Assembly: GCF_900130075.1 (NCBI RefSeq)
Contig: NZ_LT671418.1
Span: forward strand, 310,001-374,000
Origin: Herminiimonas arsenitoxidans
Lineage (GTDB): Bacteria > Pseudomonadota > Gammaproteobacteria > Burkholderiales > Burkholderiaceae_D
Length of the DNA stretch: 64,000 nt
Reading direction: 5' to 3'
The position numbers were made by a program, and so were the translations under genes. Position 1 is the first letter of the stretch. Every line of letters starts with the position of its first letter. The notes under the pieces are model-generated. The model saw only the letters and a program-made list of their open reading frames with translations. It made no database searches and was not told the DNA's origin. Positions 15,251 to 34,038 of this stretch are shown piece after piece.

Positions 15251-15252
15251 TT

Positions 15253-15435: not shown

Positions 15436-15457
15436 AATAATGAGAACTATTCTCATT
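15436..15457. promoter_or_regulatory. Fur-box-like palindrome upstream of fecI cassette 1
   Basis: AATGAGAA-CTA-TTCTCATT (15439-15457) is a perfect 8-3-8 inverted repeat. The 19-mer at 15436-15454 matches 14 of 19 bases of the classical Fur consensus by my count. It sits about 110 bases before the sigma-factor start. Confidence 0.7.
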
Positions 15458-15565
15458 TACTGGGCAAGCAATCCTTTACGGTAGCCAGCCGATTTGCAAG
15501 GCGTATGCCTACACTGGATTGCTGTGACTACTGTTTTTCATCCGAATGAAATCAAATCTGATGCG

Positions 15566-16057
15566 ATGATCACATCGCGGTCGGTGGGCGAGTTGTATAT
15601 CGATCATCAAGGCTGGTTGCAGACTTGGTTGCGTCGCAAATTGGGTTGCAGCGATCATGCTGCCGATCTTACACAAGATACTTTCGTGCAATTAATGAGT
15701 GGCATGCACCCGGCTAATTTGAGTGAGCCGCGCGCCTACATTACGGTGATTGCAAAGCGGGTGCTGTTCAACTTTTGGCGTCGACGTGATCTGGAAAACG
15801 CTTACCTCGAAGCACTTGCCGCTTTGCCTGAAGATGTGGCCCCATCCATGGAGGACCGTGCCTTGGTGCTTGAAGCACTGGAGCAAATCGATAGGGCGCT
15901 GGCAGCTATTCCAGTAAAAGCCAAACAGGTATTTTTGCTGAATCAACTTCAAGAACTAACGTATAGCGAAATTGCCGCGCAACTTTTGATGCCTGTCATT
16001 ACCGTGCGTCGGTATATGAAGCTGGCGATTTGCGCATGTTGTACGGCGGCTGAATAG
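15566..16057 (+). CDS. ECF sigma factor, FecI type (cassette 1)
   Basis: Directs RNA polymerase to the receptor gene of its own cassette when the surface signal is received. Region 2 is seen in ELYIDHQGWLQTWLRRKLG and the LTQDTFVQLM motif; YITVIAKRVLFNFWRRRDLE is the end of region 2; region 4 has a helix-turn-helix (ELTYSEIAAQLLMPVITVRRYMKLA). The ATG at 15566 gives 163 residues, normal for FecI proteins. A longer frame opens at 15494 but its extra residues are not family-like. No strong ribosome site is visible. fecR1 starts 2 bases after the stop. Confidence 0.92.
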   Translation: MITSRSVGELYIDHQGWLQTWLRRKLGCSDHAADLTQDTFVQLMSGMHPANLSEPRAYITVIAKRVLFNFWRRRDLENAYLEALAALPEDVAPSMEDRALVLEALEQIDRALAAIPVKAKQVFLLNQLQELTYSEIAAQLLMPVITVRRYMKLAICACCTAAE

Positions 16058-16059
16058 TC

Positions 16060-17103
16060 ATGCGTCATCCTTCTTCCAATATGTGCGTAGACGGCAACTC
16101 CTTGTTGATCTCGCAGCAAACCATTTCACAAGCGGCACTGGATGCGGCGATCGACTGGATGGTTTTGTTTCGTTCAGGTGAAAGCAGCGAAGATGAATAT
16201 CAGCGCTTCGCGCACTGGAAATCTTTAGACAGTCAGCACGAGCATGCCTGGAACAAGGTTGCGGGTGTGTTGGATAGATCTTTCGCGCCGATACGCAGCG
16301 TCGGTCAACGTGTGCCGGGACATGGCAAAGCGGCGGAGCTGGCCATTTTGCAGGTGGCAGATCCACGACATTCTGCGTCAAGAAGAAAATTGCTGGGTGG
16401 TCTGCTGGCTTTTGGTGCTATCAGCGCCGTCGGAGTAGTGGCAGTAAAAAATGGTTCTGTCTCCACACTGGTTGCTGATCTGCGCACGGGTACGGGTGAG
16501 CGCAAGACTTTCAATTTGCCAGACGGCAGTACGGTGATGCTGAATGCATGTTCTGCTGCTGACGTTGATTTCGATGGCGTAGCGCGTGTTGTGCGCTTGC
16601 GCAAAGGTGAATTGGTCGCCTCCGTCAAAACGGATGCGCGGCCTTTTATTGTGCAGACTGATTGCGGCATGGTACGCGCTTTGGGAACACGCTTCCTGGT
16701 GCGACAGGAGGCAGACCGTAGTTTTGCATTAGTGCTTGAGCATACGGTTGGCATTACAACCCGCAATGACACAGGCAATGGTAATTCGCACGTTTTGCGC
16801 GAAGGTGAGGCCGTCTGGTTCGATCGTGATGGCATTGGTGCTGTGCAAGCCGGACTTGAGGGCAAGGCTGCGTGGATGGATGGCATGTTGTCAGTCAACG
16901 ATGAATCCTTGGAAGATGTAATCGCTGCACTGCGTCCTTATCGAACTGGCTTTGTACGCGTTTCCCCAGCTGCTGCGCAATTGCGGGTGTTGGGTGCATT
17001 CCCTCTAGACAATACCAATCAGGTGCTGGAATCCTTGGTGCAAACCTTGCCGATCCGAATTACACGCTATAGCGATTTATTCGTGTTGATCGATGTAGCT
17101 TGA
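16060..17103 (+). CDS. FecR-family anti-sigma/signal transducer (cassette 1)
   Basis: Inner-membrane protein that holds FecI and relays the receptor signal. N-terminal cytoplasmic DUF4880 domain (about 25-70; AAIDWMVLFRSGESSEDEY). A twin-arginine-like motif, SRRKLLGG (107-114), opens the single membrane segment (111-129). The periplasmic FecR domain (LRTGTGERKTFNLPDGSTV onwards) and a C-terminal STN-like segment that contacts the receptor follow. E. coli FecR is known to be membrane-inserted by the Tat pathway, which fits the RRK motif. 347 residues. Confidence 0.92.
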   Translation: MRHPSSNMCVDGNSLLISQQTISQAALDAAIDWMVLFRSGESSEDEYQRFAHWKSLDSQHEHAWNKVAGVLDRSFAPIRSVGQRVPGHGKAAELAILQVADPRHSASRRKLLGGLLAFGAISAVGVVAVKNGSVSTLVADLRTGTGERKTFNLPDGSTVMLNACSAADVDFDGVARVVRLRKGELVASVKTDARPFIVQTDCGMVRALGTRFLVRQEADRSFALVLEHTVGITTRNDTGNGNSHVLREGEAVWFDRDGIGAVQAGLEGKAAWMDGMLSVNDESLEDVIAALRPYRTGFVRVSPAAAQLRVLGAFPLDNTNQVLESLVQTLPIRITRYSDLFVLIDVA

Positions 17104-17201
17104 GCCTTGCCAAAATTTATTTTCAGATTCGATGATCACTTTTGTCTGCGTCGATGCACATGTTCTTTGAAGACATGTTTAACGAACCCAGGAAATTGAT
17201 C

Positions 17202-19604
17202 ATGAATTGCTTTATCACCTCATCATTGCGTCCTCGTCCCGTCGTATTGGCCATCGCGCTGGCTTTATCTACTGGCGCTTATGCTCAGAGTGCGCAACAA
17301 ACGACATCAACCACAGAACGTGCCTCGTCACTTCACAACTATCAGATTGCAGCAGGGCAGTTGGGTATCACGCTGCTGGAAATCGCGCGCATCAGTCGCA
17401 CGGCAATTTCTGTTGATCCTGCTCTGGTGCAGGGGCTGAGCGCACCAGCAATTCGTGGCGACTTGCGTGTTGAGCAGGCTGTGCAACGTGCATTGGCAGA
17501 TCATGCGCTGGTTTTACAGCGCACTGAGAACGGCACGCTGACCGTCGTCAAGAGAGCAGATAGCGAGGCGCGCGATACGGGTGCTTTGCCAGAGGTAAAG
17601 GTGACGAGTACGGCGCTTGCAGATACAGGTCAGCATCTCAATGCACCAGTTAATAGCGGTGCGTTAGGCAATCGCACAGTGCTGGAGACGCCTTTCTCAA
17701 GCACGGTGGTAACCAGTGCAGATATCGCCGAGCGGCAGATCAGCAAGTTGGGTGATGTATTCGCTACCGATGCATCTGTCTCGGACAACAGCGGCGCTTA
17801 TGGTGCATGGGCTACTTATTTGACGGTGCGCGGTCTGGCGCTGGATTTTCAGAACTCCTTTCGTATCGATGGCAAGCCATTCCTGAGTTATGTCGTGACG
17901 CTGCCTTATGAGCACATGGAGCAAATCGAATTGCTGAAAGGCTCTACTGGCTTCATGTATGGCTTTGGCTCGCCCGGTGGTTTGGTCAACTATGTCACCA
18001 AAAAACCAACGGATGAACCTTTACGCAGTGTGGGCGTTGGCTATTCGTCCAAAGGTTTGTTGAGCGAACATGTAGATATCGGTGGGCGCGTGGGTGAAAA
18101 CGGCAGGTTCGGTTATCGTCTGAATGCAACACATGAAGAAGGCAGGACATTCAATAATGGTTCACTGAATCGCAACGCACTATCGCTGGCACTGGATGCG
18201 CGTCTGACCGATAAGCTGACATGGGATTTTCAATCCATTGCGCAGGATCGCAAGGCTGTTGGGCAGGAGCCAACGATTACCACTTTCGGTCTTGTTGGCA
18301 ACAGACTTCCTTCTCCGATCAGGAATGACAACAGCACGATAGTCGGCAGCGGTGTCTATGCGGACAATTCTTTCCGCTTTTACTCTACCGGCCTCAAATA
18401 CGAGTTAACACCTGATTGGAAAATCAGTGCCAACTATAGCCACAGTTCAACCACAACGCGACGCAATGAATCGGTTCTTGGTTTGACGGACAGCTTGGGA
18501 AATTACACTGATACTCGCTCTGATTATGGTGAGTCGTATCAATTCAATCAATTGCAAGCCATGTTGGAAGGTAAATTCCAGACTGGTTCGTTCGAGCATC
18601 AAGTTGTTGTGGGTGCGTCAGCGCTGAAGCTGAAGAACGACTACAGTCGAATTTCTGTTTATCAGCTTATTGGTACTGGAAACCTCGCATCGCAAAATAC
18701 GAATAGTTATTACAGTTCAGGTGATCTGGGTTTGTATCGTGGTGGTGATATGACACAAAAAGCACTTTTCGCGAGTGACACGATAAAACTGTCCGAACGT
18801 GTGTCTGTGTTGGCTGGTTTGCGCTACACCAACTACAGTCACGCTACTTACAAATCTGACGGCACAGCTTTGTCTGATCCGTATAAACAGAATGGTATAA
18901 AAACGCCTACCTTGGCACTGATGTACAAACTGACGCCGAATACCATGGCTTACACCAGTTATATGGAATCGCTGGAGCCTGGAACCGTAGTCGGACTCAC
19001 TTACGCTAACCAACGTTCCGTATTGGACCCGCTCAAGAGCAAGCAATATGAAGTAGGGATCAAAACAGAGCAAAGTGATTGGAGTGCAACTGCCGCGATA
19101 TTCCGTATCGAGAAAAAATCACAATACGGTAATAGTGCGAATGTGTTTGTGCAGGATGGCATGGCTATTTACCAAGGTCTCGAACTGGGTGCCGCAGCAC
19201 GTCTGGCGAAGAACTGGAATGTGGGCGGCAGTTTGATGTTGCTGGATTCTGAATATAAAAATGCGCTTGTTGGTACGGGTAACCGTGTGGCGGGAGCACC
19301 AGAAGCGATTGTGGCTGCACAACTGGCTTATACCGTGCCGCAAGTTCCCGGCTTGAAGTTGAATGCCAATGCAAAGTACACCGGAGCCACGATGTTGCGA
19401 GCAAGTAATGATATTCAGGTCGCGGGTTATACCTTGTTGAATCTTGGCGCTGTCTATGACACGCGTATCGGTGGATATGACACGACCTTCCGTCTGGCGA
19501 TCAATAACGCGACTGACAAGCGCTACTGGATGTTCCAGTACGAAAATTACGTGAAAGCGGGTGACCCTCGTTCACTCACGCTTAACGCGACTTTCAAATT
19601 CTGA
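17202..19604 (+). CDS. TonB-dependent siderophore receptor with signalling domain (cassette 1)
   Basis: Outer-membrane receptor and signal transducer. The ATG at 17202 is preceded by AGGAA at good spacing and begins a signal peptide ending at ALSTGAYAQ; two upstream in-frame starts are less likely. An STN domain (about 35-115) is followed by the TonB-box-like LPEVKVTS, a plug domain (ETPFSSTVVTSADIAERQ through GSTGFMYGFGSPGGLVNYVT) and a beta-barrel ending in the aromatic NATFKF. 800 residues. The ligand cannot be read from sequence; the barrel end resembles receptors of the TonB-siderophore family. Confidence 0.93.
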   Translation: MNCFITSSLRPRPVVLAIALALSTGAYAQSAQQTTSTTERASSLHNYQIAAGQLGITLLEIARISRTAISVDPALVQGLSAPAIRGDLRVEQAVQRALADHALVLQRTENGTLTVVKRADSEARDTGALPEVKVTSTALADTGQHLNAPVNSGALGNRTVLETPFSSTVVTSADIAERQISKLGDVFATDASVSDNSGAYGAWATYLTVRGLALDFQNSFRIDGKPFLSYVVTLPYEHMEQIELLKGSTGFMYGFGSPGGLVNYVTKKPTDEPLRSVGVGYSSKGLLSEHVDIGGRVGENGRFGYRLNATHEEGRTFNNGSLNRNALSLALDARLTDKLTWDFQSIAQDRKAVGQEPTITTFGLVGNRLPSPIRNDNSTIVGSGVYADNSFRFYSTGLKYELTPDWKISANYSHSSTTTRRNESVLGLTDSLGNYTDTRSDYGESYQFNQLQAMLEGKFQTGSFEHQVVVGASALKLKNDYSRISVYQLIGTGNLASQNTNSYYSSGDLGLYRGGDMTQKALFASDTIKLSERVSVLAGLRYTNYSHATYKSDGTALSDPYKQNGIKTPTLALMYKLTPNTMAYTSYMESLEPGTVVGLTYANQRSVLDPLKSKQYEVGIKTEQSDWSATAAIFRIEKKSQYGNSANVFVQDGMAIYQGLELGAAARLAKNWNVGGSLMLLDSEYKNALVGTGNRVAGAPEAIVAAQLAYTVPQVPGLKLNANAKYTGATMLRASNDIQVAGYTLLNLGAVYDTRIGGYDTTFRLAINNATDKRYWMFQYENYVKAGDPRSLTLNATFKF

Positions 19605-19634
19605 TGGTTATGTTTGTTGGTACATCTGGAGAGG

Positions 19635-19767: not shown

Positions 19768-20340
19768 TTAAGTCAGGCGCGTAGCAAATTCCGCGACACG
19801 TTTTCCTAGCAAGCGTGCAGTTTTCAGATCGCCTGAACGTGGCGCTTCGTCCGGCGAGGCATCTGACGGCGATATTGCCAAAGCGCCGGCGAAACCTGCA
19901 GTCCAGTTCACATCATCGGGGCCATGTGTTTTGGTATTGGCCGGCATCAAGCCGGTGCCTATCCATATCTGGCCGTGTTGTTGCGAGAGCGTCCAGAAAT
20001 ACTGAATAGTAGAAAATTTGTCGCCATTCAGCGATGCTGAATTGGTGAAGCCGGCAGCGACCTTGTCTTTCCATGCTTGTCCGAACCACGGTTTGGATGA
20101 AGCATCAGCAAATTTCTTGAATTGCCAGGCTGGGCCGCCCATGTAAGTAGGGCTGCCGTAGATGATGGCATCTGCTTTGCTGATTTCTTCCCACGCGCTT
20201 TCTGGCAGGTCACCTTCGGGATTGATTTGATACAACTTGGCTTTTGCGCCGGGAGCAGATGACGCTCCCTCAAAAACCGCTTCCGCCTGCTTGGTTGTAT
20301 GGCCGTAGCCGCTGAAAAATACGATGGCGATGGTAGTCAT
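19768..20340 (-). CDS. flavodoxin-like / NAD(P)H-dependent oxidoreductase (WrbA-like)
   Basis: A 190-residue FMN-binding protein. IVFFSGYGHTTKQAEAVFEG is the phosphate-binding loop and IIYGSPTYMGGPAWQFKKF the second flavin-contact loop; GFTNSASLNGDKFSTIQYFW and the GPDDVNW region match the flavodoxin/WrbA type. The start at 20340 (MTTIAIVFF) is chosen because upstream residues are not family-like. It lies between cassettes 1 and 2 on the opposite strand. A role as an iron-sparing electron carrier or a ferric reductase partner is inference from position. Confidence 0.85.
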   Translation of the reverse strand: MTTIAIVFFSGYGHTTKQAEAVFEGASSAPGAKAKLYQINPEGDLPESAWEEISKADAIIYGSPTYMGGPAWQFKKFADASSKPWFGQAWKDKVAAGFTNSASLNGDKFSTIQYFWTLSQQHGQIWIGTGLMPANTKTHGPDDVNWTAGFAGALAISPSDASPDEAPRSGDLKTARLLGKRVAEFATRLT

Positions 20341-20519
20341 GGGAGCACGCTTTCTATAGAAGACGTTAGGGAAGGCACGGGCAAGGTGAGATGCCGTACT
20401 CAATCTGAGAGTGGCTTGCAGCTTATTAAGTTTCTATAAGAAGCCTGAATTGAGGGGCAACACGTCATTCTGAACAAAGTATGAGGTCCTCCATGTACCG
20501 TCTTCGCAACAAGTTTGGT

Positions 20520-20614
20520 CAAGTTGCAAGCTGGATGTAGTCAGAACTAACAAGTAATGTGATAATGAGAATCATTATCAATAGTGTTATTTGATTCTTC
20601 ATCTAGTTTTCATG
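20520..20614 (+). repeat. duplicated fecI promoter region, copy A
   Basis: About 95 bases ending at the fecI2 ATG are nearly identical to 24841-24935 before fecI3. Shared blocks include AAGTAATGTGATAATGAGAA, the rest of the Fur box, TTGATTCTTCATC and AGTTTTCATG. Confidence 0.85.
20561..20579. promoter_or_regulatory. Fur box upstream of fecI cassette 2
   Basis: GATAATGAGAATCATTATC matches the 19-base Fur consensus at 18 of 19 positions. It ends 32 bases before the fecI2 ATG, so Fur-Fe would cover the promoter or transcription start. Confidence 0.92.
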
Positions 20615-21130
20615 TCTCACGCCTCCCACTCCAGTCAGCACGATGTTTTGCACACTTTGTACAGCGAGCAGTACGGCTGGTTGCATGCGTGGCTGCGCAA
20701 GAAACTATCGTGCACACATCAGGCAGCGGATCTTGCGCAGGATGCGTTCCTGCAAATTCTGAGACGCCCTGAAACATTAGTTGATGTGCGTGAGCCGCGA
20801 GCTTATTTGACGACGATTGCACGTCGATTGGTATTCGAGACTTGGCGTCGACGCGATCTGGAGCAGGCATATCTGGCTGAGTTGTCAGCATTGCCTGAGG
20901 ACGTGGTGCCATCACCGGAAGATCAGGCGCTGGTATTGGAAACCTTGCTGGCAATCGATCGCTTGCTGGATGGATTGTCACTCAAGGCGCGTAGCGCTTT
21001 CCTGATGAGCCAACTGGATGGCATGACCTATAAGGAAATTGCTGCCGAGTTGAATGTCTCGGCCAGTCGTGTGCGTCAATACATGGCGCAGGCACTGACT
21101 TGCTGTTACGCAGCGGTATTGCCGGCATGA
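20612..21130 (+). CDS. ECF sigma factor, FecI type (cassette 2)
   Basis: A 172-residue sigma factor. HTLYSEQYGWLHAWLRKKL and AADLAQDAFLQIL are region 2; YLTTIARRLVFETWRRRDLE ends region 2; MTYKEIAAELNVSASRVRQYMA is the region 4 helix-turn-helix. The N-terminal 40 residues are almost identical to those of the cassette 3 sigma factor, and the promoters are also near copies, pointing to cassette duplication. The stop overlaps the fecR2 start (ATGA). Confidence 0.95.
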   Translation: MSHASHSSQHDVLHTLYSEQYGWLHAWLRKKLSCTHQAADLAQDAFLQILRRPETLVDVREPRAYLTTIARRLVFETWRRRDLEQAYLAELSALPEDVVPSPEDQALVLETLLAIDRLLDGLSLKARSAFLMSQLDGMTYKEIAAELNVSASRVRQYMAQALTCCYAAVLPA

Positions 21131-22122
21131 ATGCATTTGCTTCTCACACGGCAGCACCTGTCTCCAACGATCCAATTGTCGAAGCGGCTATCGATTGGAT
21201 TATCTGTCTGCGCTCGGGTGAGGCAGGGCAGGTCGAACACGAGGCCTTCAAGCGCTGGCGCCTGCAGGATGTACGTCACGATGCTGCCATTCGTCATCTG
21301 GAACAAGTGCTAGGCGCTTTCGATACCTTGCCGGTTTCTTCTCATGTTCGTAGTTCAGCGCGTCGCGCTTTGCTGAAGTCGCCTGAGCGTCGCAAGTTGC
21401 TGCGGAATGGCTTGGCTCTGTTGCTGCTTGGTTCAGGAGCTGCTTTGCTGACTCAGCGTATAACGCCACTTAATACGATGACGGCAGACTTGCGTACTGC
21501 AACCGGGCAGCGCAAACATGTACGACTGGCCGATGGCAGCCAGATATGGCTGAATGCACGTAGCGCGGCTGATATTGATTTTGATGAGGCGACGCGCCGT
21601 ATTCATTTACGCAGCGGAGAAATCATCGTCGATGTCGCGTCTGATGCGCAGCGTCCATTCATTGTGCAGAGTGCGCAAGGAAGCATGCGCGCGCTAGGAA
21701 CACGCTTTCTGGTAAGGCAAGAGGAGGGCGCTACTGTCCTCGCTGTTTTGCATTCTTCGGTACGAATCGATGCCATGGGTGGTACCAGCCGCACTTTGGT
21801 TGCAGGACAAAGTGCGCGTTTCGATCAAGTGCAGATCGATGCTATAGATGCGGCATCCGACGATGCTGCCGCATGGATGGATGGTTTTATTGAAGTTCAT
21901 GATCGTCCTCTGAGTGAAGTGATTGCAGCGCTCAGACCATATCGTTCAGGCTTTTTACGATTGACGCCACAGGCTGGTGCCTTGCGCGTAACGGGGACCT
22001 TCCCGCTGGATGATAGTGGACGGACTTTGGCTGCATTGGCTGAGACATTGCCGATTGCAATTCGCCGTCGCACCGATTATTGGGTCAGCATCGAGATGTT
22101 GAGTCCCGTGCCTTCCTCTTGA
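21127..22122 (+). CDS. FecR-family anti-sigma/signal transducer (cassette 2)
   Basis: 331 residues from the ATG that overlaps the fecI2 stop. Cytoplasmic DUF4880 domain (AAIDWIICLRSGEAGQVEH), a twin-arginine-like ERRKLLRNG at 87-95 leading into the membrane segment (about 94-110), the FecR domain (LRTATGQRKHVRLADGSQI, then FIVQSAQGSMRALGTRFLV) and a C-terminal STN-like end (PLDDSGRTLAALAETLPI). The family role is to sense ligand-loaded receptor in the periplasm and release FecI. Confidence 0.93.
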   Translation: MNAFASHTAAPVSNDPIVEAAIDWIICLRSGEAGQVEHEAFKRWRLQDVRHDAAIRHLEQVLGAFDTLPVSSHVRSSARRALLKSPERRKLLRNGLALLLLGSGAALLTQRITPLNTMTADLRTATGQRKHVRLADGSQIWLNARSAADIDFDEATRRIHLRSGEIIVDVASDAQRPFIVQSAQGSMRALGTRFLVRQEEGATVLAVLHSSVRIDAMGGTSRTLVAGQSARFDQVQIDAIDAASDDAAAWMDGFIEVHDRPLSEVIAALRPYRSGFLRLTPQAGALRVTGTFPLDDSGRTLAALAETLPIAIRRRTDYWVSIEMLSPVPSS

Positions 22123-22253
22123 AGTCTTGCTTGTAACCCGGCTGAAAATATTTTTTTAAATAATCTGCCATCAGCCCTGTCACTTTTTTCTCTTCGTTGC
22201 ACAAACCAGATGAAACCCATTGTTTATCTCGTTTGTTATTACGGAGAATTATC

Positions 22254-24665: not shown

Positions 24666-24678
24666 CCATGACTCATTT

Positions 24679-24840: not shown

Positions 24841-24935
24841 CAAAGTTACAAATTGGATGTGGCAAGAAATAATAAGTAATGTGATAATGAGAATCATTAT
24901 CAGTTGAGTTGTTGATTCTTCATCCAGTTTTCATG
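24841..24935 (+). repeat. duplicated fecI promoter region, copy B
   Basis: Near copy of 20520-20614. It includes the same Fur box and the same spacing to the sigma-factor ATG within one base. Confidence 0.85.
24883..24901. promoter_or_regulatory. Fur box upstream of fecI cassette 3
   Basis: Identical 19-mer to the box of cassette 2 (18 of 19 to the Fur consensus), ending 31 bases before the fecI3 ATG. Confidence 0.92.
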
Positions 24936-25466: not shown

Positions 25467-26485
25467 GTCTGACTGCTTCCGGCGTTGCTACGCAATACAT
25501 ACCGCCTCAAATCGACAATATGCGCGCAGCAGATAGCGATGCCGATATCATCGCGTGCGCCGCAGAATGGCATGCGCATCTGCATTCCGGCGAAGCTGTG
25601 AACGAGGATTACACCAACTTTGAATACTGGCGTACGCAGGATATCCGCCATGCGGAAATTTATGCGCGCATGGAAAAACTATGGGCGCGCTTCGATGACG
25701 TGGATGCCAAGCCAGCGACTATCGCCTTGAACAAGGCATTGAGGTCTGGTGCAGCCAAGCGCAAGAAAGTGGCTGCACAAGCGCTGGCGTTTTGCCTTGG
25801 GGTATTTGGTGTATGGACTGCTCTGCAAACAGCACCAGCGAAATACATGCTGGCCGACTATCGTACGGCAGTCGGTGAACAGCGTGTGATTGAGCTGGAT
25901 GATCGCAGCCGCATTACGCTCAATACACATTCCGCAATCGATGTTGATTACAGCGGCAAGCAGCGTCGCATCACCTTGCAGCAGGGCGAAATTCTGGTCG
26001 AAGTGGCGAAGGACAGTGAACGACCATTTATCGTCGAAACTGAACACGGCACGGCACGTGCACTCGGCACGCAATATCTGGTCAAGCGCGAAGCAGAGGG
26101 CACGCGCGTTACCGTCATCGAATCGACGGTGGAAGCGTGCGCTGCCAAAGTGCCCGCATGCGTCACGCTGAAGCCGGGCGAGCAAACCGTGGTCACGCCG
26201 GATGCAGTGCAAGCGCCGAGCATGGTCAATGCCGAAGCTTCTGCTTCATGGAGCAAGCACATGCTGGTGGTTGACAATCAACCGCTGGCGCAAGTGCTGC
26301 AAGAATTGGCGCGCTATCGCTACGGACGCATCTTCTTCAATGCTGACGAGATTGCCGATCTACGTGTATCCGGCGTGTATGCGCTGGATGACACCGACCG
26401 TACGCTGTCGATACTGGTGGCAACCACGCCGATTCGCGTCAAGCAATACACCCCTTTATTTGTAACGGTGGCCCCGCTTAAATAA
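25463..26485 (+). CDS. FecR-family anti-sigma/signal transducer (cassette 3), lacks twin arginine
   Basis: 340 residues. DUF4880-type cytoplasmic domain (ACAAEWHAHLHSGEAVNED), membrane segment about 104-121, periplasmic FecR domain (YRTAVGEQRVIELDDRSRI, FIVETEHGTARALGTQYLV) and the STN-like C-terminus. Where the other three FecR proteins have RRK before the membrane segment this one has AKRKKVAA (98-105), with no Arg pair, so insertion may not follow the Tat route reported for FecR. It also carries a Cys pair, CAAKVPAC, in the periplasmic domain. Confidence 0.92.
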   Translation: MSLTASGVATQYIPPQIDNMRAADSDADIIACAAEWHAHLHSGEAVNEDYTNFEYWRTQDIRHAEIYARMEKLWARFDDVDAKPATIALNKALRSGAAKRKKVAAQALAFCLGVFGVWTALQTAPAKYMLADYRTAVGEQRVIELDDRSRITLNTHSAIDVDYSGKQRRITLQQGEILVEVAKDSERPFIVETEHGTARALGTQYLVKREAEGTRVTVIESTVEACAAKVPACVTLKPGEQTVVTPDAVQAPSMVNAEASASWSKHMLVVDNQPLAQVLQELARYRYGRIFFNADEIADLRVSGVYALDDTDRTLSILVATTPIRVKQYTPLFVTVAPLK

Positions 26486-26564
26486 ATTTTTTTGCCGTTC
26501 ACTGTCCCTCCTGTCTTTTGCTTCGTCATCACTTATGAAGACATCAAACAGGAGGACTCTTTCA

Positions 26565-28997
26565 ATGCATCAAGCACTCTTCAAGCAAAAGCCCTTGGCT
26601 GCTGCTGTACATCTTTTGCTGGCCGTATCAGTCAGCGCAACCGCACTTGTATCGAGCGCTGCATACGCACAAGCAGCCAGCACCGAATCAGCTGCGGCAA
26701 GCCGTGCTTACGATATTCCAGCCGGTCCGCTGACACAGGCGCTGAATACCTTTGCGCAAACGGCTGGCGTACTGCTTTCTTTCGAACCGGAATTGACGGC
26801 CGGTAAAACCACCAAGGGTATCAAGGGTACATACGGCATCAAGCAAGGGTTTGATGCTTTATTGCAGGGCAGTGGTTTGGCGATAGCGGCCAGTTCCGGT
26901 AACGCTTATACGTTGAAAAAAATTCCTGTGTCGCAACTGCACAGTACGGAAGCGACGTTGCCGGAAGTGCACGTCAGAGCGGGTGTGCAGGAAGATGTGG
27001 GTTACGTCGCCAAGCGCAGCACGACGGCGACCAAAACAGACACCCCCATCATAGAAACACCGCAGTCAATTTCTGTCATCAGCCGAGAGGAAATGCAGGA
27101 TAGAGGCACGCAAAACCTGATGGAAGCTTTGCGTTACACGCCGGGCGTCATCACTGAAAGTTATGGTGTGGACCCGCGCGGTTTCGACTACATCAAGTTA
27201 CGTGGTTTCAGCACGATGTACTCTGGGCAGTATCTCAATGGCTTGCGTTTTTATAACAGCGGTTTCGCCGTATTCAATACAGAGCCGTTCGGGTTGGAAC
27301 GCATAGAGGTGCTGAGAGGGCCAGCTTCAGTTTTGTATGGACAAGGCGATGTAGGTGGCGTCGTTAATGCGGTCAGTAAACAACCTACTGCTGACAGTGT
27401 GCGCAACATTCAATTGCAAGCGGGAAGTAACGACCGCAAACAGCTGGGTCTTGATATTGGCGGTGCACTTAATGAAGATGGCACGCTCTTGTATCGCCTG
27501 CCTGTCTTGCTGCGTGAGAGCAACTCCCCGTATGCGTACAGCAATGGTGCCAAACAACCTGATGATCGGATTTATCTGGCACCGTCATTGACCTGGAAGC
27601 CCAATGGCAGAACGTCTTTCACGATACTGTCGGAATTTCAGAAAGACAAACGCGGTAGCCAATTCCATCCCTACCAAGTGCCGTATGGTGCTTCGACCAA
27701 TATCACTTCGGGTGTGCCTGGTTTCGACCGCATGCACCAGCGTCAGGCTATGTTGGGTTATCAATTGGAGCATACGTTTGATAATCAATGGACGTTCAGT
27801 CAGAACTTCCGCTATGCAGAAAATGATGTGGACTACCGTTCAGTAACCGGTTATGACTTGCAGAACAACATGATGTCCCGCTATTTGTACGCGGCGAAGG
27901 AGCATACCGAACAATGGTCGGTGGATAATCGCATGCAGGGACAAGTCGATTTTGGCGGCTTGCGGCACAAGCTTTTGCTTGGGCTGGATAGCTACAATGT
28001 ACGCACTCATCAGGATAGCTTTTTATCGTTCGCTATTCCTGCCCTCGACATAACGGCGCCCGTTTATGACACTCCTATCACGATGCCAGCCAGTCCTAGC
28101 GGCAGTACGCAAACCAAGCTCAGACAAACGGGTATCTATTTGCAGGATCAGATCGATCTGGGAGAAAAATGGCGTGTCACTCTAGGCGCGCGTCGGGACG
28201 AAGTGCGGCAGGAAACAAATAATTTGCTCGCAATGACGCAACAGGAGCAAAAGGATAGTGCGAGCACTTATCGTCTGGGCGTTTCCTATTTGTATAACCC
28301 ACGCATCGTTCCGTATTTTAGCTACAGCGAATCGTTTCTTCCCAATGTTGGCAGGGGTTACGGCGATGTGACTTTCGCACCTTCGCAAGGGAAGCAGTAT
28401 GAAGTTGGCTTGAAGTACGCGCCACAGGATTGGGACGCGCTGTTTACCATGGCGGTCTTTGATTTACGTAAAACCAATGTACTAACCAAGGATGTCGCGA
28501 ATACATGTCAAGTGTCGAATAAGCCGGATTGCGGCGACAACTACCAAAGGGCTGAAGGCGAAGTGCGTACGCGTGGCCTGGAGTTGGAATTCAAAGCCAA
28601 TCTGATGCGTCAACTAGACGTCGTTGCAAGCTACACCTATCTGGATGCAGAGATTACGCGTAGCGAAGACGGTAATGCCGGTCGTCGTCCACTCGATGTG
28701 GCAAAGCAGAATGCTGCGCTCTGGCTGAACTATCGCGCCTCGTCGATACCTGGATTGAGTACGGGCATGGGTGTGCGATATATGGGGCCGACGTACAGCG
28801 ATAGCAAGTACCTCGCGGAAGTGCCGTCCTACACAGTGCTTGATATGGCCTTGCGCTACAAGATAGACGCACAGTGGAATCTGGCATTGAACATCAGCAA
28901 TTTGACGAACAAGAAATATGTGACGACGTGTCCAAACGGTAGTTGCTATTACGGTTCACAACGTATCGTGCTCGCCACCTTGTCCTATGCCTGGTAA
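26565..28997 (+). CDS. TonB-dependent siderophore receptor with signalling domain (cassette 3)
   Basis: The ATG at 26565 follows a strong AGGAGG and opens a signal peptide ending SSAAYAQ; an ATG 30 bases upstream lacks a site. STN domain (YDIPAGPLTQALNTFAQTAG), TonB-box-like LPEVHVRA, plug (ETPQSISVISREEMQDRG to GPASVLYGQGDVGGVVNAVS) and a barrel ending TLSYAW, with a C-terminal CPNGSCYYGSQR as in the hydroxamate-type group. 810 residues. The stop overlaps the downstream esterase by 11 bases, linking uptake and siderophore processing. Confidence 0.93.
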   Translation: MHQALFKQKPLAAAVHLLLAVSVSATALVSSAAYAQAASTESAAASRAYDIPAGPLTQALNTFAQTAGVLLSFEPELTAGKTTKGIKGTYGIKQGFDALLQGSGLAIAASSGNAYTLKKIPVSQLHSTEATLPEVHVRAGVQEDVGYVAKRSTTATKTDTPIIETPQSISVISREEMQDRGTQNLMEALRYTPGVITESYGVDPRGFDYIKLRGFSTMYSGQYLNGLRFYNSGFAVFNTEPFGLERIEVLRGPASVLYGQGDVGGVVNAVSKQPTADSVRNIQLQAGSNDRKQLGLDIGGALNEDGTLLYRLPVLLRESNSPYAYSNGAKQPDDRIYLAPSLTWKPNGRTSFTILSEFQKDKRGSQFHPYQVPYGASTNITSGVPGFDRMHQRQAMLGYQLEHTFDNQWTFSQNFRYAENDVDYRSVTGYDLQNNMMSRYLYAAKEHTEQWSVDNRMQGQVDFGGLRHKLLLGLDSYNVRTHQDSFLSFAIPALDITAPVYDTPITMPASPSGSTQTKLRQTGIYLQDQIDLGEKWRVTLGARRDEVRQETNNLLAMTQQEQKDSASTYRLGVSYLYNPRIVPYFSYSESFLPNVGRGYGDVTFAPSQGKQYEVGLKYAPQDWDALFTMAVFDLRKTNVLTKDVANTCQVSNKPDCGDNYQRAEGEVRTRGLELEFKANLMRQLDVVASYTYLDAEITRSEDGNAGRRPLDVAKQNAALWLNYRASSIPGLSTGMGVRYMGPTYSDSKYLAEVPSYTVLDMALRYKIDAQWNLALNISNLTNKKYVTTCPNGSCYYGSQRIVLATLSYAW

Positions 28998-29859
28998 AAA
29001 ACGAAGCGCTGCATGGCGCTTCTCCATGCTTGGGTGCAGCCTGTTGGTGCTCGGCTTATTGATGACCGTGGAGGTCTCGGCACAGGAGGTCAAGCTGTCG
29101 GGAACGCGGCAGCTTACATTCATGGGAGGGCCGTCCGCTGATCGGCCTTACCACCTCTTCATTAGCGAGCCGGCTGGCAAGAAGATTCCACGCGATGGGC
29201 ATCCTGTGCTCTTCGTGCTGGATGCCAATGCGTATTTCGCCGCATTCCATGAGGCACGGCGTGTGCAGGCCTCCTTTGAGGAAGCCATCATTGTCGGTAT
29301 CGGCTATCCAACAACAACGCCGCATGATTTTTTGCGGCGCTCTTATGATTTCTCTCCGGCTGTTGCGCCGGAGCGCAATACTCCTCCACAGGGTGGCGAT
29401 GATGAATTTCTCGATACCTTGCAAAAGATTATTGATGAGATCAAGCGTCGTTATCCGGTCAATCCGCAACAGTTGAGTCTGTTCGGTCATTCTTTCGGCG
29501 GCATGTTCGCGATGCATGCACTATTTACGCGTCCGACGCTCTTTAGTCATTACGTCGCGGCTAGTCCATCGTTGTGGTGGAACGATAACTATCTGCTGAA
29601 ACAGGAACGTCATTTCATCGAGCAGGTAGAAGCAGGTCTATGGGATACCAGAAATCAAAGCGTGCTATTGCTGGTGGGAGATAGAGAGACGCCGCAGAGT
29701 ATTCAAGAACCTCAGGCTCTGGAGCAACGCTTGCAACCGTTATCACGCTGGGGTTTGCGTACCGCTTTTTATTTGCAGCCGGATGAGGATCACATGTCAT
29801 TGCCGATCAGCATTGCGCCGCGGGTGCTGCGACAAGTGTTTACTGCGCGTAGAAGATAG
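28987..29859 (+). CDS. periplasmic esterase of the IroE/Fes type
   Basis: A 290-residue alpha/beta hydrolase with an N-terminal hydrophobic signal or anchor (CSLLVLGLLMTVEVSAQ). Catalytic Ser169 sits in LFGHSFGGMFAMHAL, and an acid/His pair is likely in QPDEDHMSLP near the C-terminus. VLFVLDANAYFAAF and VGIGYP are typical of the esterase-D/enterochelin-esterase-like family (IroE, BesA). The start lies inside receptor 3, so translation is coupled. Likely job: hydrolysing an ester-linked siderophore carried by receptor 3; the substrate is inferred from position. Confidence 0.87.
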   Translation: MPGKKRSAAWRFSMLGCSLLVLGLLMTVEVSAQEVKLSGTRQLTFMGGPSADRPYHLFISEPAGKKIPRDGHPVLFVLDANAYFAAFHEARRVQASFEEAIIVGIGYPTTTPHDFLRRSYDFSPAVAPERNTPPQGGDDEFLDTLQKIIDEIKRRYPVNPQQLSLFGHSFGGMFAMHALFTRPTLFSHYVAASPSLWWNDNYLLKQERHFIEQVEAGLWDTRNQSVLLLVGDRETPQSIQEPQALEQRLQPLSRWGLRTAFYLQPDEDHMSLPISIAPRVLRQVFTARRR

Positions 29860-29875
29860 GGGCGGGTTGAATCAT

Positions 29876-29909: not shown

Positions 29910-29921
29910 GTCTGCTGCGAC

Positions 29922-32399
29922 TTACCAACGATGTGTATAGCTGACAGATAATGTCGCGCCTGTCGCTGGCAAACGACTATTGTTGTTGCCGCTACGGATG
30001 AGTTGGCTATACAGCGGCAGATAGTATTTGTTGAACAGATTCTGCACGCCTATCGTGATGGAATCATGTTTGTCCAGCTTGTAACGGCTGACGACATCGA
30101 CGGTGTAATAGCTTTTGACATCGGCTCTGCCGAGCTGCGTTATGCCATTGGCCAAACGATAATCCTTGGAACCGAACCAGGTCAGTTGCGCGCGATTGCT
30201 CCAGCGTTCATTTGGTTGATATTGCACATAGCCGGTGATTTTGACGGGTGGGATGCGGTAGCCGCTCATTTGCTGTGTTTTCGTTGCGTTCTGTGGCAGC
30301 TCGCGACCTTGCATCCATGTGAAGGTAGCGCCGCTCGCCCATTTTTCATCATCGCTGTAGTGATCGACAGTTGCTTCTACGCCGTTGATTTTTTCGCTGG
30401 TGCGCGTCAGTACCAAGCCATTGTTGAAAGACTGTACGGCCCCCAGATCAGAGGTGGAACGGAACAGCGCCAGCGATGCCATCGTGTTCGTAAAGCGGCC
30501 ACGCCAGCCCATTTCATAGTTGTCGGTTTTAACCGGTTCCAACTGGGAAGAGTTGATGTTGAAGCCGGCTCCAGCATTACGCACTTGCAGACCGATGTCT
30601 GGCAAATCAAAACCCTGGCTGACCGATGTATAAAACTCCTGACCTTTGACAGGTTTGAATACGATGCCTGCGTTGTGCATCAGCGCGTCGTAGCTAACCT
30701 TACCACCTTGGATCGTGGCGGGATTGGTGAGTTTGGATTGCGACAAGGGCTGGAAGTCATTGAAGGATGCACTTGCTCTTTCGTAACGCAAGCCACCTTC
30801 GATAGACCATTGTTCATTGAGTTTGTGTTGCAATTGAGCGAAAGCACCGATGCTGCGTGTCGTGGTCCACGGAAGAAAAATTTTCTGACCTATCTTGCGG
30901 AATACAAGACCACCGCTGGCATCGTAGGCGGCCGGATCGAATACATCGATAGGCATATTGCTACGTTCCTGTATGAAGTCTGCTCCCCATACCAGACGTG
31001 TATCTTCCTTGCTGCCTAACGGTGTATCCAAGGTCAGACGACCACCGAATACCTTGTTGTTCTGCATGACTTGATCGATGTTTTGGCCACGAGTGATGCT
31101 TGATTTACGCGCATCGAAAGGTGTAAAGCGCGTGAAGTTATCGCGACCATAGACAAGTGCAGATAGCGAGCCACCCAAGACATCTTTGTGTTCGTAATTA
31201 AGGCTGAGCAAAGTATTTTCTACTTCGTTCTGATTCGCCAGTTGTAGACCTTTAATGGCACGCGCCGTAGTGCTGCCTATCGGCGTTGCGGAAACTGCAG
31301 GATCACTAGCGTAATCGGTGTCTTGTTTTGCGCGCAGATAGCTGGCCGCAAGTTGCAGTCGCTGATTGGCGTCGATACGGAAGCCCATCTTGCCACCCAA
31401 GCTGTAAGTGTTGGAATCGAATAGATCGCCTTGACTTGCATCCGGCGCAATGCGATCGCCGTGTGCATCGTAGGAACCGCCTATGCGGCGATAAGATGTG
31501 TCCACTTCATAATCGACGACATCGCCTTTACCGGAAAAATAATGTTGTACCTGCGCACCCAAACCTTTGCTTGTCAGCTTGGATAGCGCGGCATCCATCG
31601 ATATCGTGGTTTCTGCAACGGGTTCGCCGCCAACAGGGCGCGTTGTGACGGAAATGATGCCACCGCTTGCGCCGCTGCCGTAGATCGAATTACTCCCGCG
31701 CAGGACTTCGATGCGATTGATGCGGCTGGGATCGATGTTGACCAGATTGCGTGATGAATCGCGATTGGTATTGAGCGGGATGCCATCGACCAGTATCAGC
31801 GCATTGCGTCCACGCAGTGTTTGTCCAAAGTCGGTGAGGTTGCGACTGGAATCTGATAAGCCGGGTACGCTCTTGGTCAGCATTGCGCCCAGATTAGGCG
31901 AAGTGGCGCGCAAATCTGCCAGTTCCTGTCCTTCGATCACGGTGACTTGTCGCGTCGGTTGCATCAAGCCGCTGCCGGAGCGTTCTGTTGTCACGACGAC
32001 GGTTGGCATGATGTCAGGCACTGAAGGAATCGATGCTGCACTGATTTCAGCCGCTGTCTTGCGTCGAATATGCAAGGCGCCGTTGGTGATCGTTTCTGCT
32101 GTCAGATCGCTGCTACTGAGTGCTTGTCGTACCGCTTCATCGGCTGACAGGCGGCCATTGATTGCGGCTGCCTGATGTCCGGCGATCAAAGCTGGATCGG
32201 CGACGATAGTGCGACCGCTTTGCTGGCCGATGCGAGTCAGCGTGGTGCTCAATGGTCCGGCCGGAATATTCAGTTGAACTGCGTTGGCGGTGGAGGCTGG
32301 GCTGGCGCTTTGTGCCCATGCACTGGCTTGCGTACAGGCGATGGCAACAGCGAAGGCGATACGACTTAGTTTCAAACGAGAGGTATGTATGTGCTGCAT
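29922..32399 (-). CDS. TonB-dependent receptor with signalling domain (cassette 4)
   Basis: An 825-residue outer-membrane receptor with signal peptide (to QASAWAQ), STN domain (LNIPAGPLSTTLTRIGQQSG), TonB-box-like MPTVVVTT and plug (GRNALILVDGIPLNTNRDS to GSNSIYGSGASGGIISVTT). The barrel ends VSYTHRW. The plug is of the FepA/CirA/BtuB-like style (LILVDGIP) rather than the FhuA style of cassettes 2 and 3, so the ligand class probably differs (catecholate, haem or another chelate). Order on the - strand: fecI4-fecR4-receptor. Confidence 0.92.
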   Translation of the reverse strand: MQHIHTSRLKLSRIAFAVAIACTQASAWAQSASPASTANAVQLNIPAGPLSTTLTRIGQQSGRTIVADPALIAGHQAAAINGRLSADEAVRQALSSSDLTAETITNGALHIRRKTAAEISAASIPSVPDIMPTVVVTTERSGSGLMQPTRQVTVIEGQELADLRATSPNLGAMLTKSVPGLSDSSRNLTDFGQTLRGRNALILVDGIPLNTNRDSSRNLVNIDPSRINRIEVLRGSNSIYGSGASGGIISVTTRPVGGEPVAETTISMDAALSKLTSKGLGAQVQHYFSGKGDVVDYEVDTSYRRIGGSYDAHGDRIAPDASQGDLFDSNTYSLGGKMGFRIDANQRLQLAASYLRAKQDTDYASDPAVSATPIGSTTARAIKGLQLANQNEVENTLLSLNYEHKDVLGGSLSALVYGRDNFTRFTPFDARKSSITRGQNIDQVMQNNKVFGGRLTLDTPLGSKEDTRLVWGADFIQERSNMPIDVFDPAAYDASGGLVFRKIGQKIFLPWTTTRSIGAFAQLQHKLNEQWSIEGGLRYERASASFNDFQPLSQSKLTNPATIQGGKVSYDALMHNAGIVFKPVKGQEFYTSVSQGFDLPDIGLQVRNAGAGFNINSSQLEPVKTDNYEMGWRGRFTNTMASLALFRSTSDLGAVQSFNNGLVLTRTSEKINGVEATVDHYSDDEKWASGATFTWMQGRELPQNATKTQQMSGYRIPPVKITGYVQYQPNERWSNRAQLTWFGSKDYRLANGITQLGRADVKSYYTVDVVSRYKLDKHDSITIGVQNLFNKYYLPLYSQLIRSGNNNSRLPATGATLSVSYTHRW

Positions 32400-32479
32400 G
32401 AGAAGGTCCCTTTTGGTTTGTTTTCAATAACCATGTGGAACGAAACGGAAAAACCCCTCATGCTTTTTAAAATTAATTG

Positions 32480-33469
32480 CTATGCCTGTTTGATGTCGAT
32501 GGAAATCAACCAATTACCGTAGTGCTGCATCTTCAGCGGCAAGGTGTACGTCAAGGTGCGCAATGCATGGCCGGGATCGTCTAGCGGGAAGACGCCGAAC
32601 ACGCGCAACTCTGCAGCGGCTGGTGAAAGTCGTATCAAGCCGCTGTAATAAGGCTTGTAGGCATCGACGACTTCGGCCAGCGTGGCATTCTCGACAGCCA
32701 GCATGCCGTCCGACCAGGCGGCACGCGCGACGGCATTACCGGCGATGGGCTCGATTTGTGCCGAGGTAAACAAAGCACCTTCGCCTTCACGCATGCGCAT
32801 TTGCTGACCATCGTGCGTGCGTAAGTCTATGCTGTGTTCAAGTACAACGACTTGCGATTGCGCAGCGCGTTGACTGACCAGAAAACGCGTACCCAAGGCT
32901 TGTACCGTGCCTTGACTGGTGCGAACGATAAACGGACGTTGCGCATCCGGCGCGACGGTAGCGATCAACTCGCCTTCACGCAAATGCAATTGCCGTGTGT
33001 CTTGATTGAAGTCGATATCCGCTGCAGAGCGTGCATTCAGCTCGACGCTGCTGCCATCGGACAAGCTAAACGTTAGTCTTTGCCCCGTGCCTGTACGCAG
33101 ATCGGCCATGAGTTGACTGATGGGCATACTGCGATTGGCGACGATGGCCGAAGCACCACCCAAGCCGGCGAACACCAGCGCACCGCGCAGGAATTTTCTG
33201 CGACGGGTGCCGAGCAGAGTGCGTTGCGTTGCCTGGACTTGTCCCGGTGCGCTCAGGCCGGCATCGCGCACGATGCTTAATGAATCGTCCAACAAACCAG
33301 CGACCCGATTCCATGCCATTTCATGTGCCGGATCGGCAGTACGCCAATGCTCAAAGGCCAGACGATCAGCCTCGCTCAAGGTGTCCGATTCAAAGCGGAT
33401 CAGCCAATCTACGGCAGTATGGAGCAGCTGATCGTGTGCGGCTGACGCGTGATGGCTGGCTGGATTCAT
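32480..33469 (-). CDS. FecR-family anti-sigma/signal transducer (cassette 4)
   Basis: 329 residues from the ATG that overlaps the fecI4 stop (ATGA). The frame is open 279 bases further but that part is antisense-like filler over fecI4. DUF4880 domain (TAVDWLIRFESDTLSEADR), the strongest twin-arginine motif of the four (TRRRKFLRG, 88-96), membrane segment about 96-110, FecR domain (LRTGTGQRLTFSLSDGSSV, FIVRTSQGTVQALGTRFLV) and the STN-like end. Confidence 0.93.
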   Translation of the reverse strand: MNPASHHASAAHDQLLHTAVDWLIRFESDTLSEADRLAFEHWRTADPAHEMAWNRVAGLLDDSLSIVRDAGLSAPGQVQATQRTLLGTRRRKFLRGALVFAGLGGASAIVANRSMPISQLMADLRTGTGQRLTFSLSDGSSVELNARSAADIDFNQDTRQLHLREGELIATVAPDAQRPFIVRTSQGTVQALGTRFLVSQRAAQSQVVVLEHSIDLRTHDGQQMRMREGEGALFTSAQIEPIAGNAVARAAWSDGMLAVENATLAEVVDAYKPYYSGLIRLSPAAAELRVFGVFPLDDPGHALRTLTYTLPLKMQHYGNWLISIDIKQA

Positions 33470-33969
33470 GGCGCCCATTGCAGGCATTGCAGCAGCGCGC
33501 GCTTCATGTAGCGTTCTACCGTGGCGAGTGAGACGCCTAATTTTTCGGCGATTTCTGGGTAGGTCAGGCGATCCAGACGGCTGTAGAGAAATGCTTTCTT
33601 GACTGGCAGCGGGAGTGCGTCGAGTGCGCGGTCTATCTGTTCTATGGCTTCCAGCAGAACTGCGCGTTCTTCCGGTGACAGGGCGACGGCTTCCGGCAAT
33701 AACATCAGCGATTGCAGATAGGCTTTTTCCAGATCCTGCCGACGCCATAGATGAAAGAGGATGCGCTTGGCGATCGTCGTCAAAAAGGCGCGCGGTTCAG
33801 CTATCGTCGCAACGTCCTTGCTCTCTACAACCTGGGCGAAGGTTTCCGAGGTGACGTCTTCCGCATCGGCACGGCTGGACAAGCGGCGCTGCAGTCGACA
33901 CAGCAGCCACGGCTGATGCTCGACATACAGCATTTCTAAAACGGCAGACGATGAAGGATGGATGGGCAC
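33466..33969 (-). CDS. ECF sigma factor, FecI type (cassette 4)
   Basis: A GTG at 33969 with GGAGA six bases before it gives 167 residues (MPIHPSSSAVLEMLY). A TTG at 34005 would add 12 residues but lacks spacing. Region 2: MLYVEHQPWLLCRLQRRL, AEDVTSETFAQVV, FLTTIAKRILFHLWRRQDLE. Region 4: LTYPEIAEKLGVSLATVERYMKRAL. More diverged from the other three, in line with a separate origin of cassette 4. Confidence 0.93.
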   Translation of the reverse strand: MPIHPSSSAVLEMLYVEHQPWLLCRLQRRLSSRADAEDVTSETFAQVVESKDVATIAEPRAFLTTIAKRILFHLWRRQDLEKAYLQSLMLLPEAVALSPEERAVLLEAIEQIDRALDALPLPVKKAFLYSRLDRLTYPEIAEKLGVSLATVERYMKRALLQCLQWAP

Positions 33970-34019
33970 AGCGACTCTCCGAGGCTTGCCTAGTTTATGC
34001 GGCAAGTCCTTGATTTTGT

Positions 34020-34038
34020 GTAAATGAGAATCGTTATT
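34020..34038. promoter_or_regulatory. Fur-box-like site upstream of fecI cassette 4
   Basis: The 19-mer beginning GTAAATGAGAATCGTTATT matches the Fur consensus at 14 of 19 positions. It lies about 50 bases before the GTG start of fecI4 on the - strand. Confidence 0.65.

Follow-up and report, generated by a model that had tools for sequence, protein, structure and literature searches.

Introduction

In the cell-surface signalling (CSS) systems closest to those dealt with here, FecA-FecR-FecI of Escherichia coli and the FoxA/FoxR, PupB/PupR and FpvA/FpvR systems of Pseudomonas, a ligand triggers release of the receptor's TonB box, the receptor's STN domain contacts FecR, FecR is proteolysed and a sigma factor is released, according to three accounts (PMC11637429, PMC6699858, PMC9249621). 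How does a block of four such systems compare? The block in question lies at 15436-34038 of a 64,000-nucleotide stretch (the window, to whose positions all coordinates refer) of the genome of Herminiimonas arsenitoxidans, a single contig of 3,784,322 bases with 12 FecR matches, and holds four complete cassettes (c1 to c4). Each has, by Pfam, the order extracytoplasmic function (ECF) sigma gene (S), FecR gene (F), receptor gene (R), c1 to c3 being tandem on the plus strand and c4 convergent on the minus strand. The likeness to the E. coli and Pseudomonas systems takes in gene order, a Fur-like box, an STN domain that precedes the TonB box and the plug, and the motif LGT in FecR, and for Pseudomonas it extends to the match of F3 to the solved chains 6ovk/6ovm and of R3 to FoxA. 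The block differs from both in having four linked cassettes, no inner-membrane transporter among the scanned block proteins, and ligand modules swapped across species, and in that S1, F1 and the receptors fall under the NCBI equivalog cut-offs for FecI, FecR and FecA.

A module logic was made visible by laboratory chimeras of PupA and PupB in which 86 residues were swapped (Koster et al. 1994, described in PMC9249621): a new N-terminal signalling segment redirects signalling and the barrel retains its transport specificity. What is described below is likened to that logic, but is natural and recurrent rather than laboratory-made, with joints that lie at the TonB box or close to it. The FpvA pyoverdine receptors, too, are diverse STN-plug-barrel receptors, though in the accessible part of their account recombination is named for synthetase clusters and not for barrel exchange behind STN (PMC11444679). 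No report of natural STN/barrel exchange was found among the titles and abstract openings listed, which lay mostly outside subscription journals.

The block is, we think very probably, an accessory array of four CSS cassettes, presumably Fur-controlled and likely a panel of separate sensing channels for xenosiderophores, whose ligand module has been exchanged at the TonB box. An earlier note, made from the letters of this DNA alone, had the anatomy right; however, that anatomy is ordinary CSS, and the interesting part is the exchange, which the letters alone could not show.

Exchange of ligand modules

The genomes compared were 12 other species of the same GTDB genus (G001-G012) which, with the own genome (G000), make 13. 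They hold 125 FecR-domain matches. The loci used gave 96 FecR open reading frames (ORFs) recognised by a profile of F1-F4, the remaining matches (long frames of about 450-680 aa and weak matches) being mostly left out by choice and loci L018-L020 unused. Fifteen of the 96, several at the ends of fetched pieces, had no receptor inside the set limits, which leaves 81 FecR-linked receptors; sigma factor, FecR, STN, plug and barrel were compared in their 3240 pairs. Most of these are distant paralogues, and the informative part is the close pairs. Where FecR is at least 65% and STN at least 55% identical, the barrel is less than 40% identical in 23 of 60 pairs. Breaks at the other boundaries were absent: between sigma factor and FecR (sigma at least 75%, FecR under 45%) in 0 of 64 pairs, between FecR and STN (FecR at least 65%, STN under 45%) in 0 of 60, and between plug and barrel (plug at least 80%, barrel under 40%) in 0 of 57. 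Sigma factor, FecR and STN evidently travel together, as do plug and barrel, and the two sets have evidently been swapped repeatedly. Single-linkage grouping, run at four sets of thresholds, calls for a minimum of 9-14 exchanges. Two or more barrel types occur in 7-10 of the signalling groups, and 7-10 of the barrel groups extend over two or more signalling groups.

The unbroken FecR-STN link is what one would predict were the two partners of a pair obliged to match, and it bears on the idea that the four cassettes cross-talk as one network, any receptor being able to switch on several sigma factors. S2 and S3, 57% identical and with Fur boxes and 5′ regions nearly alike, would suit such a network. 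However, between the own cassettes FecR is only 33-45% and the receptor N-termini 27-42% identical, and together with the 0 of 60 this makes a general network unlikely, though the sigma (39-57%) and FecR identities in themselves decide nothing about cross-talk.

Could the four cassettes simply be a static set of FecI-FecR-FecA paralogues that arose by duplication in tandem and then diverged? Their canonical anatomy is what that would give, as is the most similar receptor pair being R2/R3 (41% beyond residue 140, where the range is 24-41%). So is an 82% identity of S2 and S3 over 229 bp of promoter, Fur box and 5′ end (20521-20749 versus 24843-25070), the rest being mostly diverged; this likeness resembles the outcome of gene conversion or of a joint at the module's left edge. 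However, orthologues in other species resemble each cassette's sigma factor, FecR and STN more closely than the neighbouring cassettes do, the slot's contents vary by species, and the trees of the two receptor parts conflict. These are quick trees of 25 receptors under one simple model, with the tested groups picked after the data had been seen. With FecR plus STN, own c3 stands with G007 c3 (support 100), whereas with plug plus barrel G007 c3 stands with own c1 and G009 (support 100). The approximately unbiased (AU) test rejects the opposite grouping throughout (FecR plus STN p 4e-25, STN alone 1e-37, plug plus barrel 6e-48). For plug plus barrel it also rejects own c2 with G002 c2 (3e-82) and G007_L071 with G009_L083 (1e-70), and for FecR plus STN it rejects G000_L015_7657 with G002 c2 (4e-6) and G003_L040 with G009_L083 (0.0096). 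Long-branch warnings fell on other rows, save one joining the barrel clade of own c1, G007 c3 and G009 to G005_L053. A static set is accordingly very unlikely.

The joint at the TonB box

Where along the receptor does the change come? In most pairs it lies at the TonB box or close to it. Among 38 pairs with FecR at least 55%, STN at least 60% and barrel under 45% identical, the median change-point is 6 residues past the start of the LPxVxV box (quartiles 3.75-8), and 25 of the 38 fall at +2 to +13. The median is +15 for the nine pairs with a shared barrel but not a shared FecR. A trio shows the switch at the DNA level. From its promoter to TonB box start +18, over 2171 bp, G007 c3 is 72.6% identical to own c3, and from box start +0 to 25 nt short of the ORF end, over 2002 bp, it is 74.5% identical to own c1; the two stretches of similarity have 19 nt in common, which lie at the TonB box. 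Against the cassette-1 orthologue of G009 the second similarity runs from -3 to 2 nt short of the end, at 78%. Elsewhere, G003_L039 and G012_L063 have sigma-FecR-STN DNA in common up to +7, and the barrel of G012_L063 is common with that of G008_L080 from -45 to the end. For c4 versus G007 and c1 versus G009, DNA similarity crosses the TonB box unbroken, so the method does not force a break.

One replacement in place is seen at an orthologous locus, where the similarity of G007_L009_14546 and G009_L081_1641 ends, after an aligned length of 2991, at TonB box +27 nt and sets in anew 96 nt past the receptor's end (601 bp, 86%). There plug and barrel alone have evidently been replaced, with both flanks kept. 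That right-hand joints lie near or past the stop codon may hint that selection retains fusions at the box, rather than that recombination is promoted by the short similarity. A flexible loop with the TonB box sits between the signalling and plug domains, according to the CSS literature cited above, and a joint there leaves both folds whole.

Could a difference in rate do instead, fast-changing barrels making orthologues look unrelated behind an STN domain that stays similar, with no exchange at all? Extracellular receptor parts are generally under diversifying pressure. Own R2 and G007 R2 show an intermediate loss (STN 83%, plug 65%, barrel 55%), and a few change-points, given below, lie deep in the barrel part. 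However, pairs that keep their barrel (FecR at least 55%, barrel at least 50%) keep it at 56-96% identity, and one barrel, that of c1, recurs at 77-87% behind differing STN domains (own c1 and G009 versus G007 c3, and the database proteins P0002-P0004 below). For the trio the abrupt switch in DNA refutes a rate difference, and as a general account it is highly improbable.

A control genus and what weighs against exchange

The same comparison was made in genus g6, with nine genomes, where 60 of 68 FecR matches were fetched, 47 with a receptor and 32 of these also with a recognised sigma gene. Pairs with barrels at least 60% identical and FecR under 45% numbered 0 of 70. Table 1 sets the two genera side by side by FecR identity, for pairs with STN at least 50%, a barrel under 45% counting as exchanged; the pairs are not independent, so no p value is attached to the contrast.

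Table 1. Exchanged pairs by FecR identity in the two genera
FecR identity	Own genus	g6
55-65%	20/32	0/1
65-75%	19/31	0/8 (thin set)
75-85%	4/23	0/31
85% or more	0/6	0/28

Several observations weigh against exchange at the TonB box, at least as a general rule. At the thresholds that gave 23 of 60 in the own genus, exchanged pairs in g6 are 0 of 63, so exchange is not general, or is much slower there; barrel exchange as a universal process is rejected. The 23 discordant pairs are not 23 events. Cassette 4 was inherited whole. Correlation over all pairs is not diagnostic, since g6, free of exchange, also gives a low STN-barrel value: the Spearman coefficients are, in the own genus, 0.73 for sigma-FecR, 0.61 for FecR-STN and 0.78 for plug-barrel, with 0.12 for STN-plug, 0.15 for STN-barrel and 0.23 for FecR-barrel, and in g6 0.68, 0.29 and 0.81, with 0.01 for STN-plug and 0.09 for STN-barrel. 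Not all joints are sharp: seven of the 38 change-points lie at -11 to -26, one at +42, and five beyond +50, where the barrels are 35-39% alike. In DNA, similarity ends at +142 nt for own c2 and G002, at -24 nt for G000_L017 and G005, at -153 nt for G002_L038 and G008_L080 and at -411 nt for G007_L071 and G009_L083, and G002 c2 has no barrel match in DNA to G000_L015_7657, its barrel relative at the protein level.

Relatives outside the genus genomes and hints of ligands

A database search with the STN region of R3 gave nine proteins at E<=1e-15. P0001 is an intact R3 relative (STN 92%, plug plus barrel 95%), while P0002 (from Herminiimonas glaciei), P0003 and P0004 have the c3-type STN (72-75%) fused to barrel 1 (77-81%), P0005-P0008 have STN3-like domains (56-62%) on other barrels, and P0009 has one (50%) on barrel 4 (59%). 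As a lone query against the genome contigs R3 found no relative. A match to an R3-like receptor in locus L085 (G010:C15:404837-407323) crosses one TAA, which may reflect gene decay, an error in sequencing or a wrongly placed end of the match.

Among the matches listed, barrels of the c1 type mostly occur without room for an STN domain. Among the best 120 of 606 matches to the plug and barrel of R1, 112 have no room for one, with examples from Bordetella, Achromobacter and Variovorax at 61-69%, and eight, the own one included, do: four with STN1, three with STN3 and one with an STN3-like domain (P0118, 53%). Among the best 120 of 783 for R4, 21 are without room for STN; 35 relatives are 70-84% identical, of which 32 keep STN4-like domains (44-78%), P0137 and P0153 have STN only 29-30% identical, and one begins at the plug. 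Burkholderia homologues of R4 (L089, L090), with plug plus barrel at 60%, STN4 at 25-30% and sigma factor and FecR at 22-31%, would fit exchange but are too distant for proof; L091, an R4 homologue split across two frames, and L092, with an extended frame, were both unused.

We would tentatively entertain a wider view, as a possibility rather than an expectation. In this lineage the TonB box would be a natural splice joint, with insulated sockets of promoter, sigma factor, FecR and STN repeatedly accepting plug-barrel modules, including barrels that are elsewhere STN-less, and the arrays would act as a sensing panel and a local store of modules, so that a single recombination step could wire a new siderophore onto an existing regulatory channel.

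What might the receptors bind? The closest solved structures for R1 are FemA (4e-64) and BauA, and R3 matches FoxA (1e-135) and FhuA. The R2 barrel is nearest to FhuA/ferrioxamine receptor models, under their cut-offs, and the plug and barrel of R4 share, among the matches listed, 61-62% identity with Cupriavidus proteins that carry the name 'ferric alcaligin E'; R4 is also weakly like YncD/PqqU. Several ligand classes seem likelier than one, these being hints from homology only, and the ligand of R3 is possibly processed by the downstream esterase. Neither IucA/IucC nor the Condensation domain of nonribosomal peptide synthetases (NRPS) was found in the own genome, where controls were positive and the search covered the NRPS-independent siderophore (NIS) and NRPS routes. 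The organism probably makes no siderophore by either, which suits the use of foreign ones. The earlier note's idea of a panel sensing several ligands in parallel is thus plausible, the receptors being so unlike beyond residue 140, matching different solved or named receptors, and the genome being without an IucA/IucC or condensation domain match.

How would such an array work, and what would exchange bring? Iron starvation would lift Fur off the sigma-FecR promoter. A siderophore-loaded barrel would free the TonB box, TonB would engage it, and STN would act on its own FecR; FecR would be cut and the sigma factor would transcribe the receptor gene. Sigma factor, FecR and STN would form a fixed channel and plug and barrel, with R3 perhaps also the esterase, a ligand module that recombination could replace, one of its edges falling at the TonB box. 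The anatomy, the exchange, the place of the joint and one replacement in place are shown by the data; signalling by the exchanged receptors, the identity of their ligands and the route of DNA exchange are what we infer. A CSS receptor has to suit two partners at the same time, the ligand on the outside and its specific FecR on the inside, and the data suggest that evolution parts the two at the TonB box, as the 1994 chimera implied. This would explain how siderophore receptors are gained with matched regulation retained. Naturally matched FecR-STN pairs could be used for mapping specificity and the natural joints for siderophore-reporting biosensors, naming receptors by whole-protein similarity may mislead about their regulation, and the contrast of the two genera raises the question of what sets the rate of exchange.

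The genomic slot and the question of an island

To the left of the block lie smpB, ratA, guaB and guaA, and the globin gene to its right is followed at some distance by a pair of ABC transporter genes, cydDC judging by position, and by cydAB. The slot from guaA to globin is recognisable in relatives, with contents that differ between species. It is empty of cassettes in G005 and G008, with a single gene of 180-182 aa; it holds a receptor gene without FecR match in G001, c4 and one further receptor in G010, c2, c4 and one further receptor, past a contig break, in G002, c2, c3 and c4 in G007, and at least two other cassettes in G003. It is interrupted by contig breaks in G009, G011 and G012, and G004 and G006 are arranged otherwise. 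The window's four cassettes were not found together in any of the 12 relatives: far from being common and static, which the earlier note said would weaken its reading, the block is, on synteny, very changeable.

Is it then an island? GAGTGGGA, the published integration core of GIsul2 (PMC9376610), stands at 15239-15246, within the 3′ end of guaA; the window's other copy is at 20624, inside S2 on the opposite strand, 1.14 copies being expected by chance. In G002 a phage-type integrase with an Arm-DNA-bind domain lies directly 3′ of guaA (L022:1959-3191(+)), the only integrase among ten scanned relative proteins, mostly guaA neighbours. From there to where the fetched piece stops, the genes have no match in the window. 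In the own genome there is no integrase beside guaA, the first gene past it being S1, and a second GAGTGGGA is absent at the block's right edge, so the block is not called an integrated island, and an integrative element at guaA is rejected. Membership of the GIsul2 type (PMC9376610) is not claimed, in spite of the likeness in having variable DNA beside the 3′ end of guaA and the core. A recent foreign origin is rejected on base composition, the block's G+C of 0.49-0.56 being like that of its surroundings.

These findings bear also on whether cassettes are gained and lost as whole units, the TonB-box fusions being by-products of deletions between neighbours and no separate source of variation. 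Such a fusion would arise if a deletion brought together the TonB boxes of two cassettes in tandem, and the empty or differently filled slots, the integrase past guaA in G002 and the core at guaA would all be in keeping. However, five of the eight mixed signalling groups at the middle thresholds have no member in the guaA slot, the replacement in place with both flanks kept is not a deletion product, and the own block has neither integrase nor second right-edge core. As the source of the fusions we find unit gain and loss doubtful, and prefer exchange at the TonB box.

Arrays, counted by eye as FecR matches spaced 8 kb or less in the 13 genomes, recur in this genus and are less frequent in those around it. 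Runs of at least four occur in two genomes, the own one and G004 (runs of eight, four and four), and G007 has a run of three. The run of eight (L004 and L005, G004:C4:177500-217300), whose last piece ended at the edge of the fetched stretch, yielded every one of its FecR ORFs; a receptor goes with seven of them and a recognised sigma gene with six. G004 has 32 FecR matches in a genome of about 3.2 Mb, and this run is far denser than the window. Two FecR matches within 10 kb (E<=1e-10) were found in 0 of 38 family genomes of other genera, many of them drafts; in g6 one FecR pair lies 9.9 kb apart (G052, one of nine genomes), and in Kerstersia gyiorum two adjacent cassettes are tabulated (PMC6461280). 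The number of cassettes, unusual according to the earlier note, is so beside other genera but not beside G004. A second tandem CSS pair exists in the own genome (L015:1-17001, G000:C1:1560000-1577000), adjoining an opposite-strand frame of at least 1383 aa and one weaker FecR-domain match.

Anatomy of the block

Pfam places Sigma70_r2 and r4_2 in all four sigma genes, DUF4880 and FecR in all four FecR genes, and Plug and TonB barrel in all four receptors. STN is found at E<=0.001 in R1 and R3 (both under the curated cut-off) and in R4 (over it). R2 has no Pfam STN, yet its N-terminus can be aligned with the STN domains of the other three and shares 83-87% identity with the N-termini of two orthologues, so the fourfold order that had been noted holds by Pfam and, for the STN of R2, by alignment. 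By NCBIfam S1, the sigma factor scanned, passes NF009180 and TIGR02937 and misses the FecI equivalog (161.7 versus 260 bits), F1 is under the FecR equivalog cut-off (215.6 versus 385), and the receptors are under that of FecA but pass the siderophore-receptor subfamily TIGR01783. The periplasmic part of F3 matches 6ovk/6ovm, which we take to be the PupR signalling domain, at E 5e-32, and all four FecR proteins have LGT, presumably the self-cleavage site of the family. No shared sigma-dependent promoter is claimed in the FecR-receptor gaps, inspected by eye only.

A Fur-like 19-mer lies 5′ of every sigma gene (Table 2), as had also been noted. The boxes are predicted, from 340 bases per gene and a Fur consensus; 5.7% of 3000 random 340-base window stretches attain a score of 13, so the c4 box is weak taken alone. 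Genus-wide, 48 of 88 scanned sigma genes score at least 13.

Table 2. Features of the block and its edges
Feature	Position	Strand	Source
Cassette 1	15494-19604	+	Pfam
Cassette 2	20591-24665	+	Pfam
Cassette 3	24909-28997	+	Pfam
Cassette 4	34005-29922	-	Pfam
guaA (GMP synthase), left edge of variable slot	13631..15250	+	
Fur-like box c1, 14/19	15436..15454	+	
S1, ECF sigma factor; chosen start 15566, longest ORF from 15494	15566..16057	+	
F1, FecR anti-sigma/sigma regulator; LGT = residues 208-210	16060..17103	+	
R1, STN-plug-barrel receptor; longest ORF from 17142	17202..19604	+	
TonB box of R1, LPEVKV; joint of signalling and ligand modules	17586..17603	+	
WrbA-like flavodoxin / NAD(P)H:quinone oxidoreductase, between c1 and c2	19768..20403	-	NCBIfam, below cut-off
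Fur-like box c2, 18/19	20561..20579	+	
S2, ECF sigma factor	20591..21130	+	
F2, FecR; longest ORF from 21100	21127..22122	+	
R2, receptor with STN-like N-terminus	22197..24665	+	
TonB box of R2, LPEVKV	22620..22637	+	
Fur-like box c3, 18/19	24883..24901	+	
S3, ECF sigma factor	24909..25466	+	
F3, FecR	25463..26485	+	
R3, STN-plug-barrel receptor, FoxA/FhuA type	26535..28997	+	
TonB box of R3, LPEVHV; DNA similarity to G007 cassette 3 stops here	26958..26975	+	
Esterase (PF00756), overlaps R3 end by 11 bp	28987..29859	+	
R4, STN-plug-barrel receptor	29922..32399	-	
TonB box of R4, MPTVVV	31992..32009	-	
F4, FecR; chosen start 33487, longest ORF from 33748	32480..33487	-	
S4, ECF sigma factor	33466..34005	-	
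Fur-like box c4, 13/19, weak	34020..34038	-	
Bacterial-type globin, right slot edge; precedes cyd genes in several relatives	34155..34565	-	

Just past guaA stands a perfect, loopless 32-base palindrome (16 + 16) at 15288-15319, beside a perfect 22-base palindrome at 15252-15273.

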